From assembly GCF_003987215.1 (NCBI RefSeq), contig NZ_PIPW01000001.1:620001-684000 (forward strand): DNA of 64,000 bases, written 5' to 3'. The notes under the pieces were generated by a model. The model was not told the origin of the DNA, searched no databases, and saw only the letters and a program-made list of their open reading frames with translations. This document shows, piece after piece, positions 6,756-64,000 of this stretch (position 1 is the stretch's first letter; the number at the start of each line of letters is the position of its first letter). A program made the translations under genes and the position numbers. Source of the DNA: Pseudidiomarina halophila (lineage in GTDB: Bacteria; Pseudomonadota; Gammaproteobacteria; Enterobacterales; Alteromonadaceae).

Positions 6756-7781
6756 ATGGCCGCACTGACTCTGGCACTTGATGCAATGGGGGGCGATAAT
6801 GGCCCCTCAATTGTTATTGACGCATTAGTCGATGCGTTATCAGCATTCCCCCAACATCACTTTATCGTCGTCGGCGATGAAGCTGAACTCGAACCTCTGT
6901 TAGCTGCGCGAAAGCTTGATCAGCACGATCGCGTTACCTTAAAACACGCTAGTCAAACCGTCGAAATGAGTGATAAGCCCGGTTACTCGCTGCGAGCAAA
7001 ACCAGATTCATCTATGCGCGTTGCGCTGGAACTGGTCGCCAGTGGTGAAGCTGCAGCTTGTGTCAGCTCCGGTAATACTGGCGCGTTGATGACCAAAGCC
7101 TATTTTTCACTGAAAACCTTGCCAGGAGTGCTGCGACCGGCACTGATGTCTGCTATTCCACAAGCTTCTGGTGGCAGTGCCTTTTTGTTGGACTTAGGCG
7201 CAAATCCGGTCTGTGACAGCGATACCTTGTTTCAATTTGGGCTTATGGGCTCGGTTGCCGCCAGCGAAGTACTGCACAAAGAAAATCCGCGCGTTGCACT
7301 GCTGAATATGGGTGAGGAAGATATCAAAGGAAATGATGTCGTGAAATCAACGGCGCAGCTATTTCAGCAGTCTAAGACACTCAATTATATTGGTTTTATC
7401 GAAGGCGACGATCTTTTCGCTGATAAAGCAGATGTTATTGTCTGTGATGGCTTTGTCGGTAATATTGCGCTGAAAAGTTGTGAAGGACTGGCTGAGTTAC
7501 TGCTGACCAATATTCGTGCCAACATCCATGCCCACTGGTTAACACGCTGGTTCGTTAAACTTTTTTATAGCCGTTTACAGCGTTCGTGGGATTGGTTGAA
7601 GCCCGACCACTACAACGGCGCAAGTCTGATAGGATTGCGGGGCGTCGTAATTAAAAGTCACGGTGATGCCAACGCGAAAGCTTTTCTTAGTGCGATTGAG
7701 CAGGCCGTGTCGGAGACGCAACAGGACCTCCCGACACGTATTCGTGATCAGGTGGAAAACGTACTCCTAGAGCAGGAATAA
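6756..7781 (+). CDS. plsX: phosphate acyltransferase PlsX
   Basis: Makes acyl-phosphate from acyl-ACP for phosphatidic acid synthesis and works peripherally at the membrane with PlsY. The N-terminal [12 protein letters not shown] motif and [11 protein letters not shown] are PlsX signatures, and the 341-residue length is normal. GGAAGTGAGG precedes the ATG. The rpmF-plsX-fabH-fabD order is conserved, and short gaps imply one operon. Confidence 0.96.
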
Positions 7782-7789
7782 AGGTTCTT

Positions 7790-8758
7790 ATGTTTTCTAG
7801 AATCGCAGGCACTGGGCATTATTTGCCAGAGCAGTGCTTGACCAATGCCATGCTTGAGCAACGCGTCGACACGACTCACGATTGGATTGTTGAACGTACA
7901 GGTATTCATCAGCGTCATATTGCCAGTAACGGCGAAAATGCTGCCACCATGGCCGTGGCCGCAGCCCGCCAGGCGTTGGCTGCAGCAGAAACAGACATCG
8001 CCGAAATCGATTTGATTGTGGTGGCCACGACTTCCGGAGACCGCGCTTTTCCAAGTGTGGCTTGCGAGGTTCAAGCCGCGTTAACAGACGAAAATATCCC
8101 CGCTTTTGACGTTGCCGCAGCGTGTTCAGGCTTTATTTTTGCCATGAGCGTGGCGGATCAGTACATTCGTAGCGGTACCTATCGTTCGGTGTTGGTGATT
8201 GGGACGGATGTACTTTCACGTCTCTGCCGCCCAGACGACCGCAACACCATTGTGTTATTCGGTGATGGCGCCGGAGCGGTCGTTTTGCAGGCCAGCAACG
8301 TACCCGGAATAGAATCCACCCATTTACACAGCGCGGGTGAATTCGCCGATCTGTTAGGCGTAAATCATCCCCAGCGCAGGGAATCGGATCACGCCGAAGC
8401 ACTTAGTGAAGCCTGGATGTACATGAAGGGCAACGAAGTATTCAAGGTTGCGGTCAGCAAGTTAAGCGAACTGGTAAATGAAACCCTAGTTGCCAACGGG
8501 TTAACGCCGGACGACCTGGACTGGTTGGTTCCCCATCAAGCGAATTTGCGTATAATCAAAGCAACCGCTAAAAAACTTAAAATGCCGATGTCGCAGGTCG
8601 TAACGACACTCGCTGATACCGGTAATACTTCGGCGGCATCGGTGCCAATCGCACTTGATGTCGCGGTTCGCGACGGACGCATTCAACGCGGTCACAAGTT
8701 ATTGTTAGAAGCCTTTGGCGGTGGATTCGCCTGGGGTTCGGCATTAATCACGTATTAA
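7790..8758 (+). CDS. fabH: beta-ketoacyl-ACP synthase III
   Basis: Condenses acetyl-CoA with malonyl-ACP to start fatty-acid chains. The Cys-His-Asn triad is visible: Cys in AAACSGF (about residue 111), His in VPHQANLRI and Asn in DTGNTSAAS. Length is 322 residues. It starts 8 bp after plsX and is followed by fabD, so it belongs to the same operon. Confidence 0.97.
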
Positions 8759-8780
8759 CTACAAAGAAAAGGAAGGCACC

Positions 8781-9698
8781 ATGCGCGCATATGTTTTTCC
8801 AGGGCAAGGGTCACAAGCCGTCGGTATGTTAGCTGATGTAGCTGCAGAATATTCTGCCGTCAGTGAGACCTTTGCTGAAGCCAGTGAAGTGCTTGGGTAC
8901 GACCTCTGGGAACTGGTTCAGGATGGTCCGGCCGAACGGCTGAACGAAACACAGCGGACGCAGCCAGCACTTTTAACTGCCAGTGTCGCGTTGTACCGCG
9001 CCCTCGAACAAGCCGGGGTGGTGGCGCCACGCTGGCTTGCAGGACACAGTCTGGGTGAATACTCGGCGTTGGTCTGCAGCGGTTGTTTAGACTTTAAAGA
9101 AGCGGTCGCGCTGGTGGCGAAACGCGGCGAGTTTATGCAACAGGCAGTACCTAGTGGTGTTGGCGCGATGGCTGCTGTCATTGGGCTTGATGATGCGTTG
9201 GTTGAAGAAGCCTGTGCCGCAGCAGCCGGCGATCAGATTGTCAGCGCGGTAAACTACAATTCACCAGGTCAGGTGGTTATTGCAGGGCACGAAGAAGCTG
9301 TCGAACGCGCCGGTGAAGCCTGTAAAGAGCGTGGCGCCAAGCGGGTATTACCACTACCGGTGAGTGTGCCTTCTCATTGCGCCCTGATGCAGCCTGCTGC
9401 GGAAAAGCTTGCCGTCGAACTCGGTAAAATCACGTTAACGACGCCGAATATTCCTGTGATAAACAATGTTGATGTCAAAGTTGAACGTGACGCGGATAAA
9501 ATCCGTGATGCGCTGATTCGTCAACTTTATTCGCCGGTACGTTGGACTGAAACTGTCCGTTGTCTGGTTGAACAGGGTGTTACTGAAATTTATGAAATTG
9601 GTCCGGGTAAAGTGTTGACCGGACTGAATAAACGTATCGATAAAACAGTGCAGGGCGATGCTGTAAATACTGTTGAAGCCATTAAAGCAAGGATTTAG
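8781..9698 (+). CDS. fabD: malonyl-CoA:ACP transacylase
   Basis: Transfers malonyl from CoA to ACP to supply the elongation substrate. The nucleophilic serine lies in GHSLGEYSAL (about residue 90), preceded by the FPGQGSQ signature, and the catalytic His follows in VPSHCALM. Length is 305 residues. A GGAAGG Shine-Dalgarno precedes the ATG. Confidence 0.97.
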   Translation: MRAYVFPGQGSQAVGMLADVAAEYSAVSETFAEASEVLGYDLWELVQDGPAERLNETQRTQPALLTASVALYRALEQAGVVAPRWLAGHSLGEYSALVCSGCLDFKEAVALVAKRGEFMQQAVPSGVGAMAAVIGLDDALVEEACAAAAGDQIVSAVNYNSPGQVVIAGHEEAVERAGEACKERGAKRVLPLPVSVPSHCALMQPAAEKLAVELGKITLTTPNIPVINNVDVKVERDADKIRDALIRQLYSPVRWTETVRCLVEQGVTEIYEIGPGKVLTGLNKRIDKTVQGDAVNTVEAIKARI

Positions 9699-58795: not shown

Positions 58796-58830
58796 AAAAG
58801 ACTGTTCATCGTAGATGAGCAGTCTTTTTT
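58796..58830 (+). terminator. intrinsic terminator after the NfeD-SPFH pair
   Basis: A 15-bp stem with one wobble pair (aaaagactgttcatc, 58796-58810, with 58814-58828) and a 3-nt loop GTA ends in a T-run. It separates the NfeD-SPFH unit from the efflux operon. Confidence 0.85.
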
Positions 58831-58900: not shown

Positions 58901-59959
58901 ATGAAGTTGTCCACCGCTCTAACTGTTTCCATTCTCACCATTGGCTTAACTGTGCCTTCAGTTGTTACAACCGTTGCAGCGCAACAATGGGGAAATTCTG
59001 AGCAAGCGGCGTTAGTCGTGCAGCAACCTTTAGGGTTCGAGCGCGAGCGTAAGCAAGTCGAAGCCGTGGCCTATGCTGAGGCACTGCAATCTGTCGAGCT
59101 TTATCCAGCCGTGGGGGATGTGGTGACTGCAGTCAATTTTGAGCCCGGCGACCAGGTGGAACAGGGTCAGGTGTTGGTGCAGCTCGATGATCGACGTCAG
59201 CGTATTGCATTGCAGCGGGCAAAATTGCAGTTAGCTGATGCTGAACGCACCGTTGAACGATTAAAAGCAAGCCAACTGGAGGGCGCGATTCCGCAAAGCC
59301 AGTTGGATGAAGCAGTTATCGCCCGTGATCTACTAGAGGTTGCGGTTGATGAAGCACAAACCAATTTAGATGATCGTCAGGTTGTCGCTCCGTTCAGCGG
59401 CGTGATTGGAATTACAGATGTGGAAGCGGGCGATCGCATTACTCCGCAAACCTTAATTGCAACCCTGGATAAGCGCGAGCGTCTGTATATTGATTTTCAG
59501 GCCCCTGAAGCCTCTGTTGCGATGCTTGAACAAGGTGCTGACTTGAAAGTCTATTCCTGGCAGCGAATGCAAGACCCACTGTCGGCAGAGGTCGCGGAAA
59601 TTGGCTCCCGGATAGATCCCACTAGCCGCACATTAAGGATCCGAGCGATCATAGATAATAATAATGATACTTACCGTCCTGGCATGAGCTTTCGTGTGGC
59701 CTTAACATTAACCGGTGACAGTTACCCTTCGGTGCCCGAAGCCGCCTTGATGTGGGGGCCGGAAGGTGCCTATGTCTGGATTGTTGAAGACGATAAAGCA
59801 AAGCGCGTCGATGTATCCATTAAGCAACGTCTGCCAGGACGTGTGCTGGTCGACGGTAATCTGCAACTTGGCGATGAACTGATTGTTGAGGGTGTGCAGA
59901 GCTTGCGCGAAGGCCAGACTGTTAAAGAGTTAGAATTAGCCAGTGGGAGTTCTGACTAA
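58901..59959 (+). CDS. RND efflux periplasmic adaptor (membrane fusion protein)
   Basis: HlyD/AcrA-type adaptor joining an RND pump to an outer-membrane channel. A signal peptide (1 to about 26, ending VAAQQ) is followed by a lipoyl half (YPAVGDVVTAVNFEPGDQVEQG), a short coiled coil (about 105-150), the second lipoyl half (VAPFSGVIGI) and a beta-barrel. Length is 352 residues. The ATG at 58901 is chosen because AAGGAA lies 10 bp upstream and a signal peptide starts there; the earlier in-frame ATG at 58829 lies in the terminator. Its stop shares a base with the RND start. Confidence 0.9.
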   Translation: MKLSTALTVSILTIGLTVPSVVTTVAAQQWGNSEQAALVVQQPLGFERERKQVEAVAYAEALQSVELYPAVGDVVTAVNFEPGDQVEQGQVLVQLDDRRQRIALQRAKLQLADAERTVERLKASQLEGAIPQSQLDEAVIARDLLEVAVDEAQTNLDDRQVVAPFSGVIGITDVEAGDRITPQTLIATLDKRERLYIDFQAPEASVAMLEQGADLKVYSWQRMQDPLSAEVAEIGSRIDPTSRTLRIRAIIDNNNDTYRPGMSFRVALTLTGDSYPSVPEAALMWGPEGAYVWIVEDDKAKRVDVSIKQRLPGRVLVDGNLQLGDELIVEGVQSLREGQTVKELELASGSSD

Positions 59960-62900
59960 TGAAATGGGCACCGCAATTAAATGATTTACCGTCGCTGTCG
60001 ATTCGTCGTCCGGTACTGATCGTTGTCTTAAATTTACTTATTATTATTGCCGGCCTTGCCGCAATTCAGGGCGTTGAAGTTCGTGAATTACCCGATGTTG
60101 ATCGGCCAGTCATTTCCGTTACTGCCAGTTATCCGGGCGCAGCGCCAGAGACTGTTGATACAGAAGTCACCAGCCGTCTGGAAGGCGCCGTGGCGCGCGT
60201 TAGCGGCGTTAAATCCATACGGGCCTCAAGTGAAGAGGGCAGCTCGCGGGTAGTGGTTGAATTCCGGCCGGGCATTGATCTCGATAATGCTGCAAACGAA
60301 ACCCGCGAGTCGGTAAGTCGGGTGCAACGCGGACTGCCGGAACAGGTGGAAAACGTTGCGATTATTAAAGCGGATAACGATGCGGAATCTGTGATTTCCC
60401 TGGCAATCTCCAGCGAGACACTTGATCTTCCAGCATTGACCGAGCGGGTAGAAACGGATCTTGCTCCCAACTTCCTGAATATCCCGGGCGTAGCTGATGT
60501 GCGTTTAACCGGTGATCGCCGCCGGGTGATGCGGGTGGTTATCGAACCTTTGCTATTGGCAAGCTATCAGCTAACGGTAAGTGACGTGGCGGCAGTACTT
60601 CGACAGGCGCCGTTCGATGTTCCTGCAGGCAGCCTGAAATCGACGGACCAACAACTGATCGTACGTGCCGATGCGAGTTCGGTGACGACCAAAGATGTCG
60701 AAGACATTATTATTAACGAAACCACCAGAATCGGTGACGTCGCTACCGTTTATTTTGGCCCTGCAGATGCGAGCAGTATTACCAGACTCGATGGCAAGCA
60801 GGTTCTCGGTTTAGGCATTATTCGTCAGGCTCGCTCGAATACCATCGAAATCTCGAATGAAGTGTTGCGTCTGGTTGAAGATCTGAAAAAACAGTATCCT
60901 GAACTCACTCTGCGAGTGACCAGTGACGATGCTGAATTCATTCGTGGCTCGGTGGAAGAGGTCATCACCTCGTTAGCTCTGACTATTTTACTTGTGGTTG
61001 CCACCTTATGGCTATTTATTGGTTCCGGACGCGCAACCATTATCCCGGCAGTCTCAATACCTGTAGCCCTGATCGGATCCATTGCGGTGATCTGGGCGTT
61101 GGGTTTCTCGATCAACATACTTACCTTACTTGCCCTGGTGCTGGCCACCGGTTTAATTGTCGATGATGCCATCGTCGTTTCAGAGAATATCCAGCGCCGG
61201 CGCAGTATGGGGCTTGGCGCGCGAGCCGCTGCTGTAATCGGTACCCGTGAAGTGTTTTTCGCAGTCGTCGCAACAACAGCAGTGCTGGTTGCGGTGTTTG
61301 TTCCGATCGCCTTCTTACCATCAACCGCGGGCCGCCTGTTCCGGGAGTTTGGCGGGGTATTAGCAGCAGCGGTAATTATTTCATCCTTTGTTGCACTCTC
61401 GCTGGTACCGGCACTGACCGCGCGCTTACCTTTGAAAGATCATAAAGAAACATTTTTAACCCGGCTTGGTAGCCGCTTCCGTAATCGCTATGTGAAAACC
61501 CTTCACTGGGTGCTGGATCATGCCAAACTGGTGTTTGCCATTTGTGTGCTGATTGCCGGCAGTGCCGTCGGTTTCTATATGAATGTTGATAGTGAGCTGA
61601 TGCCTTCTGAGGATCGTGGTCAGATTCGTATTTTTGCCCGGGGCCCCGATGGGGTTGGGCTTAACTTTATGAACCGCCAGGCGCAGCAAATGGAAGAAAT
61701 CTTACTTCCCTATGTTAATGGCGGAGCCGTTGACAGCATTAATACCCGTGTGGGTCAGTGGGATCCAAACCTGGTGTTTATCACCGTGCGGTTAACTGAC
61801 TGGGAGGAACGCGATCGTTCGCAACAGGAGATTATTGATGAGATCAGCGAGCCGCTTAGCCGTATTCCCGGAGCACCCGCGCGCGCATTTGGATCGAACA
61901 GTTTAAATCTGCGCGGCCAGGGCGGTGGTTTGGAAGTTGCTTTAACCGGCGACAATTACCGTGAAATTTACGACGCCGCATTAGCCTTTGGTAAAGCTGC
62001 GCAGGAGGCGATGCCAGAAATTGGCTTTCCGCGCGTAGGCTATCAACCAACACAGCCACAGCTGCGGGTGAATATTGACCGGCGCCGGGCGTCAGATCTC
62101 GGTGTTTCCCTCAGTGATGTCGCGGCCACCTTACGGGTTGCTATCAATGGCGATGACATTGTCGATTTGAACATTGGCGATCAGGCTGTGCCAATCATGT
62201 TGCAAGCTGAGCGCAGTCAGATTAAATCACCTACGGATCTCTCTAACCTGTACGTGGGCAGCGCGGATGGCTCATTAGTGCCACTTTCAAGTGTTGCTAC
62301 GATTAGCGAGGAGGGGGTTGCTGCAGAGCTTGAGCGTCGTGCCCAACGTCGTGCAATCGAAGTCGACATGCAGATGCCGACCAGTATCCCAATTGAACAG
62401 GTGGTTGAGAAATTACGTGAAATCGCAGCTGAAACATTACCTGATAACATAGGTATGGTATTGCTGGGCGAGGCGGAAGCTTATGAAGAAACTGAACGCG
62501 AAATCATGATGACTTATGTGCTGGCTTTCTTAATTGTATTGCTGGTACTCGCAGCTCAGTTTGAAAGCGTAAACAGTGCTATTGTGGTTATGGCGACGGT
62601 ACCTTTTGGTATTGCTGCTGCATTCTTCGCATTGTTCCTTACCGGTACGTCGATAAATATTTTCTCGCAAATTGGCTTGGTTATGCTGATTGGCTTAATA
62701 GCGAAAAACTCCATCTTGTTGGTTGAGTTTGCTGACCAGCTGCGTGATAAGGGCCAATCTGTGCGCGAAGCTGTTGAAAATGCCGCTGATATCCGTTTAC
62801 GCCCAATTATGATGACACTGGTATCAACATTGCTTGGCGCCTTGCCATTGATACTCTCGGTCGGCGCCGGAGCTGAAGCCCGTAATTCGATTGGTTGGGT

Positions 62901-63048
62901 GGTGTTCGGTGGACTTGCCTTTGCAGTCGTGTTTACGCTTTACTTAACTCCGGTTATCTACCTGGGATTGGCGCGTTTTACCAAGCCGCGTGCTGATGAA
63001 ACCCAGCGTTTAGAGAATGAAATGGAAAAAGCGGAAGAACAGCAATGA
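59959..63048 (+). CDS. RND efflux transporter, HAE-1 type
   Basis: Proton-driven inner-membrane exporter of 1029 residues with 12 helices and two large periplasmic domains. The proton-relay aspartates are in GLIVDDAIVVSENIQRR (about 403-404), and duplicated motifs occur in the C-terminal half (IGLIAKNSILLVEF). Substrate is unknown. No outer-membrane channel gene lies in the operon, so a separately encoded TolC-type protein would be required. It overlaps the SRPBCC gene by 4 bp (ATGA). Confidence 0.93.
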   Translation: MKWAPQLNDLPSLSIRRPVLIVVLNLLIIIAGLAAIQGVEVRELPDVDRPVISVTASYPGAAPETVDTEVTSRLEGAVARVSGVKSIRASSEEGSSRVVVEFRPGIDLDNAANETRESVSRVQRGLPEQVENVAIIKADNDAESVISLAISSETLDLPALTERVETDLAPNFLNIPGVADVRLTGDRRRVMRVVIEPLLLASYQLTVSDVAAVLRQAPFDVPAGSLKSTDQQLIVRADASSVTTKDVEDIIINETTRIGDVATVYFGPADASSITRLDGKQVLGLGIIRQARSNTIEISNEVLRLVEDLKKQYPELTLRVTSDDAEFIRGSVEEVITSLALTILLVVATLWLFIGSGRATIIPAVSIPVALIGSIAVIWALGFSINILTLLALVLATGLIVDDAIVVSENIQRRRSMGLGARAAAVIGTREVFFAVVATTAVLVAVFVPIAFLPSTAGRLFREFGGVLAAAVIISSFVALSLVPALTARLPLKDHKETFLTRLGSRFRNRYVKTLHWVLDHAKLVFAICVLIAGSAVGFYMNVDSELMPSEDRGQIRIFARGPDGVGLNFMNRQAQQMEEILLPYVNGGAVDSINTRVGQWDPNLVFITVRLTDWEERDRSQQEIIDEISEPLSRIPGAPARAFGSNSLNLRGQGGGLEVALTGDNYREIYDAALAFGKAAQEAMPEIGFPRVGYQPTQPQLRVNIDRRRASDLGVSLSDVAATLRVAINGDDIVDLNIGDQAVPIMLQAERSQIKSPTDLSNLYVGSADGSLVPLSSVATISEEGVAAELERRAQRRAIEVDMQMPTSIPIEQVVEKLREIAAETLPDNIGMVLLGEAEAYEETEREIMMTYVLAFLIVLLVLAAQFESVNSAIVVMATVPFGIAAAFFALFLTGTSINIFSQIGLVMLIGLIAKNSILLVEFADQLRDKGQSVREAVENAADIRLRPIMMTLVSTLLGALPLILSVGAGAEARNSIGWVVFGGLAFAVVFTLYLTPVIYLGLARFTKPRADETQRLENEMEKAEEQQ

Positions 63049-63581
63049 TAAAGTCAGCCGGATTTAAATTAATAGTCGCACTTGCAACGGTAACATTCAC
63101 AGTGAGTGCGGCCGCAGAGGTCACGGATAGTCGGCATGACGGATTTACTTTAAACTTCGAACGTCGGCTTCCGGTAAACCCTGTTGGAGCTTTCGCGGCC
63201 ATGACCAGTGAAATAGATAACTGGTGGATTGCTGCACACACCTGGTATGGCGACAGCCAAAACATGTACCTTGATGCTAAACTCGGTGGTTGTCTGTGCG
63301 AAGTCGCAAAGCAGGGACAAACCGAACACCTGCGGGTGATTAAAGTTGAGCCAGGCAAACTCATTCGTTTTAGTGGTGGTCTTGGGCCATTGCAGGGCGA
63401 AGGTTTACACGGCGTAATGGACTGGCGCCTGCAAGCAACCGATGACCCCAATCAAAGTATCCTCAAAGTTTATTACCGTGTCGGTGGCTACTCGCCGAAC
63501 GATCTTTCCGAGTGGGCACCAGCAGTCGATGGCGTGCTGCAACAACAGATGGATTCGCTAAAAGCCTATCTGGAACAGTAA
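63045..63581 (+). CDS. secreted SRPBCC-family protein
   Basis: Protein of 178 residues with a signal peptide (1 to about 24, cleavage near SAAAEV) and an SRPBCC/AHSA1-like ligand-binding fold: LPVNPVGAFAAMTSEIDNWW at the start, GGCLCEV, LIRFSGGLGPL and a long C-terminal helix DGVLQQQMDSLKAYLEQ. Related proteins are usually cytosolic, so a secreted form translationally coupled to an RND pump is unusual. A periplasmic lipid- or drug-binding role is a guess. No terminator follows directly. Confidence 0.8.
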   Translation: MIKSAGFKLIVALATVTFTVSAAAEVTDSRHDGFTLNFERRLPVNPVGAFAAMTSEIDNWWIAAHTWYGDSQNMYLDAKLGGCLCEVAKQGQTEHLRVIKVEPGKLIRFSGGLGPLQGEGLHGVMDWRLQATDDPNQSILKVYYRVGGYSPNDLSEWAPAVDGVLQQQMDSLKAYLEQ

Positions 63582-63748
63582 GCAGAATCGTGCGCTACGT
63601 GAAATCTGTACTATTCATAGGGCAGTTACTGCCAAATAATTACGTAAGAACACCAAATTATGTGAACACCCACTTAGGTTTATATTACTTATCCATAGAC
63701 CATTTAACATAATATACATTATGCGCAATTGGTAAAATGGTAAATAGA

Positions 63749-63849: not shown

Positions 63850-64000
63850 ATGTTGAAAAGATTTTCCACGCTTATGGCCGCTGGCATTTTGTCAGTTGGC
63901 AGTGCTCAGGCGTCGCTGCTTTATAAAATCAGCGGTAACGAAATGGCAGAACCCTCTTACCTGTTTGGTACCATTCACATGATTTGCGCGAACGATTTTA
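63850..64000 (+). CDS. TraB/GumN-family protein (5' part, cut by window end)
   Basis: Only the first 50 codons are present. A signal peptide (MLKRFSTLMAAGILSVGSAQA) is followed by SLLYKISGNEM and SYLFGTIHMIC, the N-terminal signature of TraB/GumN (PF01963) proteins with the conserved GTIH. AAGGACATCAGG precedes the ATG at 63850. Members are predicted secreted metal-dependent proteins of unclear function. Confidence 0.85.
   Translation, partial: MLKRFSTLMAAGILSVGSAQASLLYKISGNEMAEPSYLFGTIHMICANDF

Follow-up and report, generated by a model that had tools for sequence, protein, structure and literature searches.

An exported SRPBCC-fold protein encoded between an RND pump gene and the dif site of Pseudidiomarina halophila, probably a passenger and not a part of the pump

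The window analysed here, a stretch of 64,000 nucleotides of the Pseudidiomarina halophila genome, contains near its end a set of plus-strand genes that runs from an RND pump operon up to the dif site of the chromosome. The operon opens with the RND periplasmic adaptor (58901..59959; TIGR01730, E 7.8e-66), listed as an ORF from a TTG at 58829 but with the ATG at 58901 (MKLSTALTV...) as the preferred start, which would give a better fit to a signal peptide. The RND permease follows (59959..63048), and then the gene of interest (63045..63581), whose product of 178 amino acids is a predicted exported protein of the SRPBCC type. Both junctions are as the initial annotation had described them: the adaptor stop (59957-59959) overlaps the ATG of the permease at 59959 as TAATG, and the permease stop TGA (63046-63048) overlaps the ATG of the SRPBCC gene at 63045 as ATGA. 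Such an overlap alone is weak evidence of a partnership, since of the 39 pairs of adjacent ORFs in the window that run in the same direction, 10, both pump-operon junctions counted, have a start at -4 or -1. The SRPBCC ORF begins with MIKSAGFKLIVALATVTFTVSAAA, followed by EV after the proposed cleavage site, and shows the basic n-region, hydrophobic core and A-x-A site of a signal peptide of 24 codons (63045..63116, + strand), with the A-A-A/E site placed by eye. A lipoprotein reading was rejected, since the signal region of this protein lacks cysteine.

The permease matches PF00873 (ACR_tran) with 834.4 bits, and its 604.7 bits against TIGR00915, compared with 336.8 bits against the CusA/CzcA model TIGR00914, indicate an HAE-1-like pump and not one of the heavy-metal type, both of these scores being under the models' own cut-offs. 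Adaptor and HAE-1 permease genes are thus found together, as in tripartite RND systems. It had been proposed that the SRPBCC gene stands in this operon in place of a channel gene. Two ORFs of the genome have OEP matches, however, and one of them is a TolC equivalog encoded elsewhere (NF007002, 529.8 bits for a cut-off of 495, at G000:C1:1216689-1218044), which makes a channel available and most likely serves the pump from its separate location. In this line, the vex RND operons of Vibrio cholerae, like the one in the window, have RND genes without a channel gene and share one common TolC (PMC10225521), and the idea of a channel replacement was rejected on both grounds. The available part of the vex account mentions no SRPBCC gene, a difference from the window (PMC10225521).

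Taken alone, the window protein matches PF10604 (Polyketide_cyc2) at E 3.7e-4 and 21.2 bits, under the gathering cut-off of 27.4, and has no match at E<=0.1 to AHSA1 (PF08327) or in NCBIfam; a family assignment from this single sequence was rejected, being below the Pfam cut-off. Among 25 aligned members of its family, 13 match PF10604 (best 4.4e-11) and 11 match AHSA1 (best 2.5e-6) at E<=0.1, and three NCBIfam families match a few of the 25 weakly (best E 0.0045). An AlphaFold2 model built from 74 sequences, the window protein and 73 homologues, reached a pLDDT of 90.2 and a pTM of 0.82, and places strands within residues 33-147 and a helix at 158-177, that is, the helix-grip fold of the SRPBCC superfamily, in which a long C-terminal helix is packed in an antiparallel sheet. 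With this model, Foldseek retrieved 328 PDB chains at E<=0.001, and the VIA matches comprise 3q64 (Z 15.3, rmsd 3.4 over 139 residues), Aha1 8z3h (Z 15.2, rmsd 2.3 over 127 residues), 7dme (Z 14.5), DynU16 (Z 14.4), 2m89 (Z 14.0) and CalC 1zxf (Z 13.0, rmsd 2.7 over 137 residues). The weak single-sequence assignment is therefore supported by the Pfam matches of the family and by the predicted fold, so that the product of ORF 63045-63581 is predicted, in agreement with the initial annotation, to be an exported SRPBCC-fold protein of the Aha1/CalC-like helix-grip type, with export read from the sequence and the fold from family matches and model. Its family is absent by name from the libraries searched.

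Proteins of the AHSA1/Aha1-like and PF10604 groups share this fold over about residues 30-178, but the window family differs from them in being exported with a signal peptide and in its conserved motifs WW..DHTW, GGCxCE and GGLGPLQ. The same fold is found in CalC, TxnO9 and DynU16 of antibiotic producers, of which CalC is a self-sacrificing resistance protein. Their sequences are nonetheless not close: a search of PDB sequences gave a best E of 0.55 for the window protein and, for the family profile, a non-significant 0.096 with TxnO9.

The signal peptide is kept in homologues, a check that the initial annotation had itself put forward. A simple rule detects it in 78 of the 80 named homologues (the best 80 of 215 relatives), in 11/11 rows of the genus and in 11/12 other rows, with start codons set by the distance to WW in the named sequences and manually, with some regard to how the signal looked, in the others. 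As controls, the rule picked out 0/24 LonB-like proteins, 0/19 LeuS and 0/17 in each of three further neighbour clusters, as well as 1/20 and 10/28 in two other clusters and 241 of all 1093 neighbouring ORFs. A second feature of the family is its cysteines. From residue 26 on, 100 of the 103 distinct homologues contain one CxC pair and no further cysteine, and the remaining three (G034, G350 and G445) contain no cysteine there; both being present or absent together suggests that they belong to one site. In the window protein they are C83 and C85 of the GGCLCE motif (63285..63302, + strand), which also holds E86 and lies on a predicted strand at 83-88. The alignment of 74 sequences, 73 of them from the best 80 of the 215 relatives, has 23 invariant columns, including W60, W61, H65, W67, C83, C85, E86, H95, G114 and P115; as homologues were picked by the motifs WW[PL][KAD]DH[TS]W or [ML][TL]GGLGPLQ, the conservation of these two is partly by construction, whereas the CxC pair and the signal peptide lay outside the selection patterns.

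This pattern would make sense if the protein used the SRPBCC scaffold for metal binding (copper or zinc) or thiol-redox chemistry in the periplasm, the CxC pair and the conserved histidines being its site, given the near-strict pairing of the only two cysteines, the invariance of C83, C85, E86, H65 and H95 and the independence of the pair from the search. On the other hand, C83/C85 and H65/H95, placed here by predicted secondary structure, may not lie together; besides, the adjoining pump is HAE-1-like and not of the heavy-metal type, and three homologues do without the pair. Specialization as a metal or redox protein is a real possibility, albeit a doubtful one.

Matches at E<=0.001 were found in 31 of the 97 genomes of a set of relatives (own genome and fragments counted) and in 10 of 369 genomes of the class (own genome counted). 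A first contig scan with the single window protein gave no relatives among 40 stretches; a search of contigs by motif patterns found relatives encoded in 215 of 269 stretches, the best 80 of which come mostly from Alteromonadaceae and Lysobacteraceae. The plasmid search returned one record, from Sphingopyxis (36%). Outside the genus, a search with the RND and adaptor proteins of the window detected an RND gene near 2 of 102 SRPBCC loci, namely 1 of the 80 named loci (the best 80 of 215; L152, 25% identity, about 1 kb away) and 1 of 22 others (L067, 23%, about 4 kb away), some loci being identical places in both sets. Quite different neighbours are found instead around the best 80 of the 215, as judged from longest-frame ORF calls and approximate gaps. 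A divergent LonB-like gene stands directly upstream in 24 of the 80, with leuS next downstream in 16 of those. In nine, from Pseudoxanthomonas and relatives, the SRPBCC start overlaps by 4 or 1 nt the stop of a gene of M48 type (two of the nine neighbours tested in Pfam), the best NCBIfam match of the M48-type neighbour being BepA with 84.6 bits for a cut-off of 570. In three, from Alteromonas, the gene comes after a cyclophilin gene, at -1 (L165), +4 (L189) and 173 nt (L127). The SRPBCC family exists independently of RND pumps.

The overlap with an M48 peptidase gene and the position behind a cyclophilin-type isomerase gene in other lineages, added to the Aha1 domains among the best structural matches (8z3h, 7dme, 2m89), have to be weighed as signs of an Aha1-like chaperone or co-chaperone that would serve envelope proteins from the periplasm. 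However, Aha1 acts on Hsp90, of which we know no periplasmic form, the strict CxC pair and the histidines are not a chaperone hallmark, and similarity of fold is common to the whole superfamily. A known case is CpaB of the Acinetobacter type II secretion system, a membrane-associated chaperone that resembles the window protein in that its predicted SRPBCC domain faces the periplasm (PMC4713064). As described in the available part of the same source, CpaB is encoded with an exported peptidase, a likeness by description, and differs from the window protein in being membrane-associated and serving CpaA (PMC4713064). Altogether, we find a chaperone role quite unlikely.

Within the genus, the RND orthologue is present in all 26 genomes (76-94% identity to that of the window) and an intact SRPBCC gene adjoins it in ten (G000, G002, G007, G008, G010, G012, G016, G017, G019 and G022). 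The copy of G011 is interrupted by an in-frame TGA, which could be a sequencing error, three genomes (G005, G018, G023) keep remnants or fragments after the RND gene, and in 12 the SRPBCC gene is absent beside it; G020 encodes a distant homologue (38%) elsewhere in its genome. Relative to the RND stop, the ten intact genes start at -4 in four cases, at -1 in four, at 0 in one and at +3/+24 in one. The start thus overlaps the stop in 8 of 10 and lies within 24 nt in the other two, which indicates that co-translation is kept where the gene exists. The earlier claim that the three genes are made together stands for this junction, preserved in all ten intact copies, but does not extend to the 16 of 26 genomes without an intact adjacent SRPBCC gene. 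Conservation of the three-gene order, suggested at the time as a check, likewise fails in those 16 and outside the genus. The co-occurrence with the orthologous pump expected of an obligate subunit is not observed, the pump being found in 26/26 genomes and the intact adjacent gene in 10/26.

The genus copies form one clade of the SRPBCC tree (support 99/99). This tree includes 26 of the best 80 of 215 relatives and leaves out eight rows (L055, L056, L057, L059, L060, L062, L065 and L070) taken as the same places as, or close to, named loci, which was partly checked. Both deep branches of the RND tree, rooted at its midpoint, contain copies or remnants and, together with the single clade, this fits one old gain followed by many losses. 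The simplest history would take a single old gain and roughly a dozen losses, counted by hand on an RND tree with unresolved forks; we infer loss rather than repeated gain, several gains in the genus being possible. Where the gene is kept, it is under purifying selection in the low-divergence pair G019-G017 (dN 0.038, dS 0.27), in a comparison with rows for SRPBCC, RND and SPFH in which many dS values are saturated or undefined, and it evolves faster than its neighbour, with an amino-acid identity between G000 and G002 of 0.58 for SRPBCC vs 0.90 for RND.

Downstream of the SRPBCC gene lies a 28-bp dif site (63702..63729, + strand), the site at which chromosome dimers are resolved, at the replication terminus. 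Its 26-bp core has a single occurrence in the genome with 3 mismatches allowed, the GC skew over 200 kb on each side changes from +0.048 before to -0.038 after, with the cumulative maximum 3.5 kb away, and the counts of GGGNAGGG (KOPS) change from 12/0 before to 0/8 after, so the conserved site coincides with a polarity switch of both skew and KOPS. By eye, all but one of the 28 positions agree with the dif of Idiomarina loihiensis (PMC2731167). A dif core (4 mismatches allowed) is found 66-1800 bp after the RND gene, in the same orientation, in 26/26 genomes of the genus, and a second dif-like site at the same threshold was not found in their 12-15 kb regions; with one such site in each of the 26 regions, the arrangement is not a Xer (dif/pdif) module, which carries its cargo between two Xer sites. 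None of 27 dif loci from other genera of the family has an RND gene within about 1.5 kb on each side. The regular occurrence of dif after the RND gene in all 26 genomes, with variable gene content between, is new here. The RND-SRPBCC-dif arrangement was not found described in the literature available on periplasmic SRPBCC proteins, RND accessory proteins and dif transfer, a partial coverage, and may still be in print.

The contents of this interval differ widely from genome to genome. Seven contain the intact SRPBCC gene alone (G000, G002, G007, G008, G012, G016, G022), and in G010, G017, G019 and, with the stop, G011 it is accompanied by an exported-looking protein of 340 amino acids with a CFI-box-CTERM domain (NF041770, E 1.6e-12; L046 7822-8841). 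Three have the remnants, eight show no clear gene, G024 has a lone 339-aa protein that resembles by eye the CFI-box one, G004 a Cass2/GyrI-like protein and G025 a MarR regulator. In G020 (L115) a DUF3047 protein with a signal-like start replaces SRPBCC directly after RND, with an overlap of 11 nt, judged by eye, between its ATG and the RND stop, and from this the position itself may favour exported products. Two further elements lie in the interval. The sequence CGCTACGTGAAATCTG (63593..63608, + strand) has one copy in the genome with 1 mismatch allowed and is found exactly before dif in 8/26 genomes, with variants in others and its part GCTACG in 19/26. Closer to dif, the element TGTRAN5YAC (63661..63673, + strand) is conserved 41-43 bp before the dif core in 24/26 genomes, compared with 0/27 sites of the family's other genera within 30-60 bp of dif and a window background of 0.047 per kb, and it may bind a protein in concert with dif.

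A comparison of G017 with G011 indicates that this interval may have moved as a unit (L046 about 7130-9011 vs L049). In 300-bp steps, nucleotide identity stays at 0.64-0.79 over most of RND and rises to 0.95-0.96 in five successive steps of the interval. In 50-bp steps at its two ends it is 0.84-1.00, beginning about 50 bp before the RND stop, and it falls to 0.36-0.58 directly past dif. A high identity is not by itself peculiar to the interval, since elsewhere in the 15 kb there are two isolated steps at 0.94 and 0.97, and conserved genes, SPFH among them, come to 0.87-0.89. The distinctive points are that the run is sustained, that it ends sharply near the RND stop and at dif, and that it covers a fast-evolving gene. 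Moreover, the dS between G019 and G017 is 0.27 for SRPBCC, 4.0 (saturated) for the adjacent RND gene and 1.35 for SPFH. In the RND tree G017 stands apart from G011/G019 with support of 99/98 and 100/99, whereas the SRPBCC tree groups the three with support of 97/72 and 96/59, the latter for the G017-G011 join. The contrast between 95-96% identity in the interval and 64-79% in RND or 36-58% past dif suggests a lateral exchange of the RND-dif interval in this one species pair, a single event, and the crossover at dif may have been made by Xer. Mobility between genomes is also described for genes next to dif-type sites, in the dif/pdif Xer modules of Acinetobacter (PMC12907356). The likeness is in this mobility; the present case differs in having one terminus dif at one border.

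It can be conjectured that the RND-dif interval of the genus is a gene-exchange slot, in which often exported cargo is swapped between species by recombination. One, Xer-assisted, crossover would be at dif itself, the other within the conserved 3' part of RND. Such cargo would gain the promoter and the translational coupling of the pump, the CxC SRPBCC gene would be the commonest cargo and TGTRAN5YAC would take part. We regard this reading as tentative and, as it stands, rather unlikely.

The initial annotation had suggested that the SRPBCC protein passes periplasmic ligands to the pump as a working part of it. A periplasmic partner that captures hydrophobic substrates and hands them to adaptor or permease would agree with the signal peptide, the overlapping or nearby starts, the purifying selection and the unrelated DUF3047 protein with a signal-like start that also overlaps the RND stop, but it is very unlikely in view of the 16/26 pumps retained without an intact adjacent SRPBCC gene, of the RND genes near 2/102 outside loci (80 of them the best of 215), both distant in sequence, of how common -4/-1 overlaps are in the window, and of the SRPBCC of G017, close to that of G011/G019 while its RND diverges. 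On the same distribution and on these discordant histories, a pump-specific subunit was rejected.

Instead, the protein is probably an accessory and dispensable passenger, a periplasmic ligand binder encoded in the RND-dif interval by a family independent of RND pumps. That it would be a passenger and not a pump part is suggested by a gene missing or broken in most pump-bearing species and sited in a variable stretch beside dif. In this genus the gene lies in the short stretch between dif at the terminus and an RND gene that every genome keeps, where it is made with the pump through the overlapping stop and start codons, and together with its interval it was probably exchanged between species in one case. 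What the mature protein holds in its helix-grip pocket, once in the periplasm, is most likely a small hydrophobic or reactive molecule, while the CxC pair with H65 and H95 may form a metal-binding or a redox/trapping site. Such a site would handle a metal, a thiol or a reactive ligand, with co-expression with the pump given by position, and any benefit of this co-expression is conjectural. Two points may count against a passenger: the coupling kept in all ten intact copies despite strong divergence could reflect selection for joint expression, and the absences could reflect niche differences rather than the lack of a function with the pump. In any case, as such exported proteins overlap or follow quite different genes elsewhere and are often missing where the pump stays, caution is advisable before an operon-like overlap is read as the sign of a fourth pump component. 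The exported SRPBCC family offers, with its strict cysteine pair, a clear testable site, and the RND-dif interval provides an instance of variable gene content at the terminus and includes a conserved element whose distance from dif is fixed.

Some observations concern the surroundings of dif. In the genome of the window an SPFH gene precedes the adaptor; in a dif locus of another genus of the family (L223, G035) SPFH comes about 0.8 kb before dif with neither adaptor nor RND in between, which may mean that the pump itself was inserted or lost at this place. In three loci of other genera (L237, L247 and L248) the sequence TGTGGATAA, which we take to resemble a DnaA box, ends 7-8 bp before the dif core. 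Beyond dif, the last letters of the window (63850-64000; L040 7851-8714) belong to the next gene, which encodes a TraB/PrgY/GumN protein with a signal-like start (PF01963, E 1.8e-62), a homologue of which is found on the far side of dif in 24 of the 26 genus regions.
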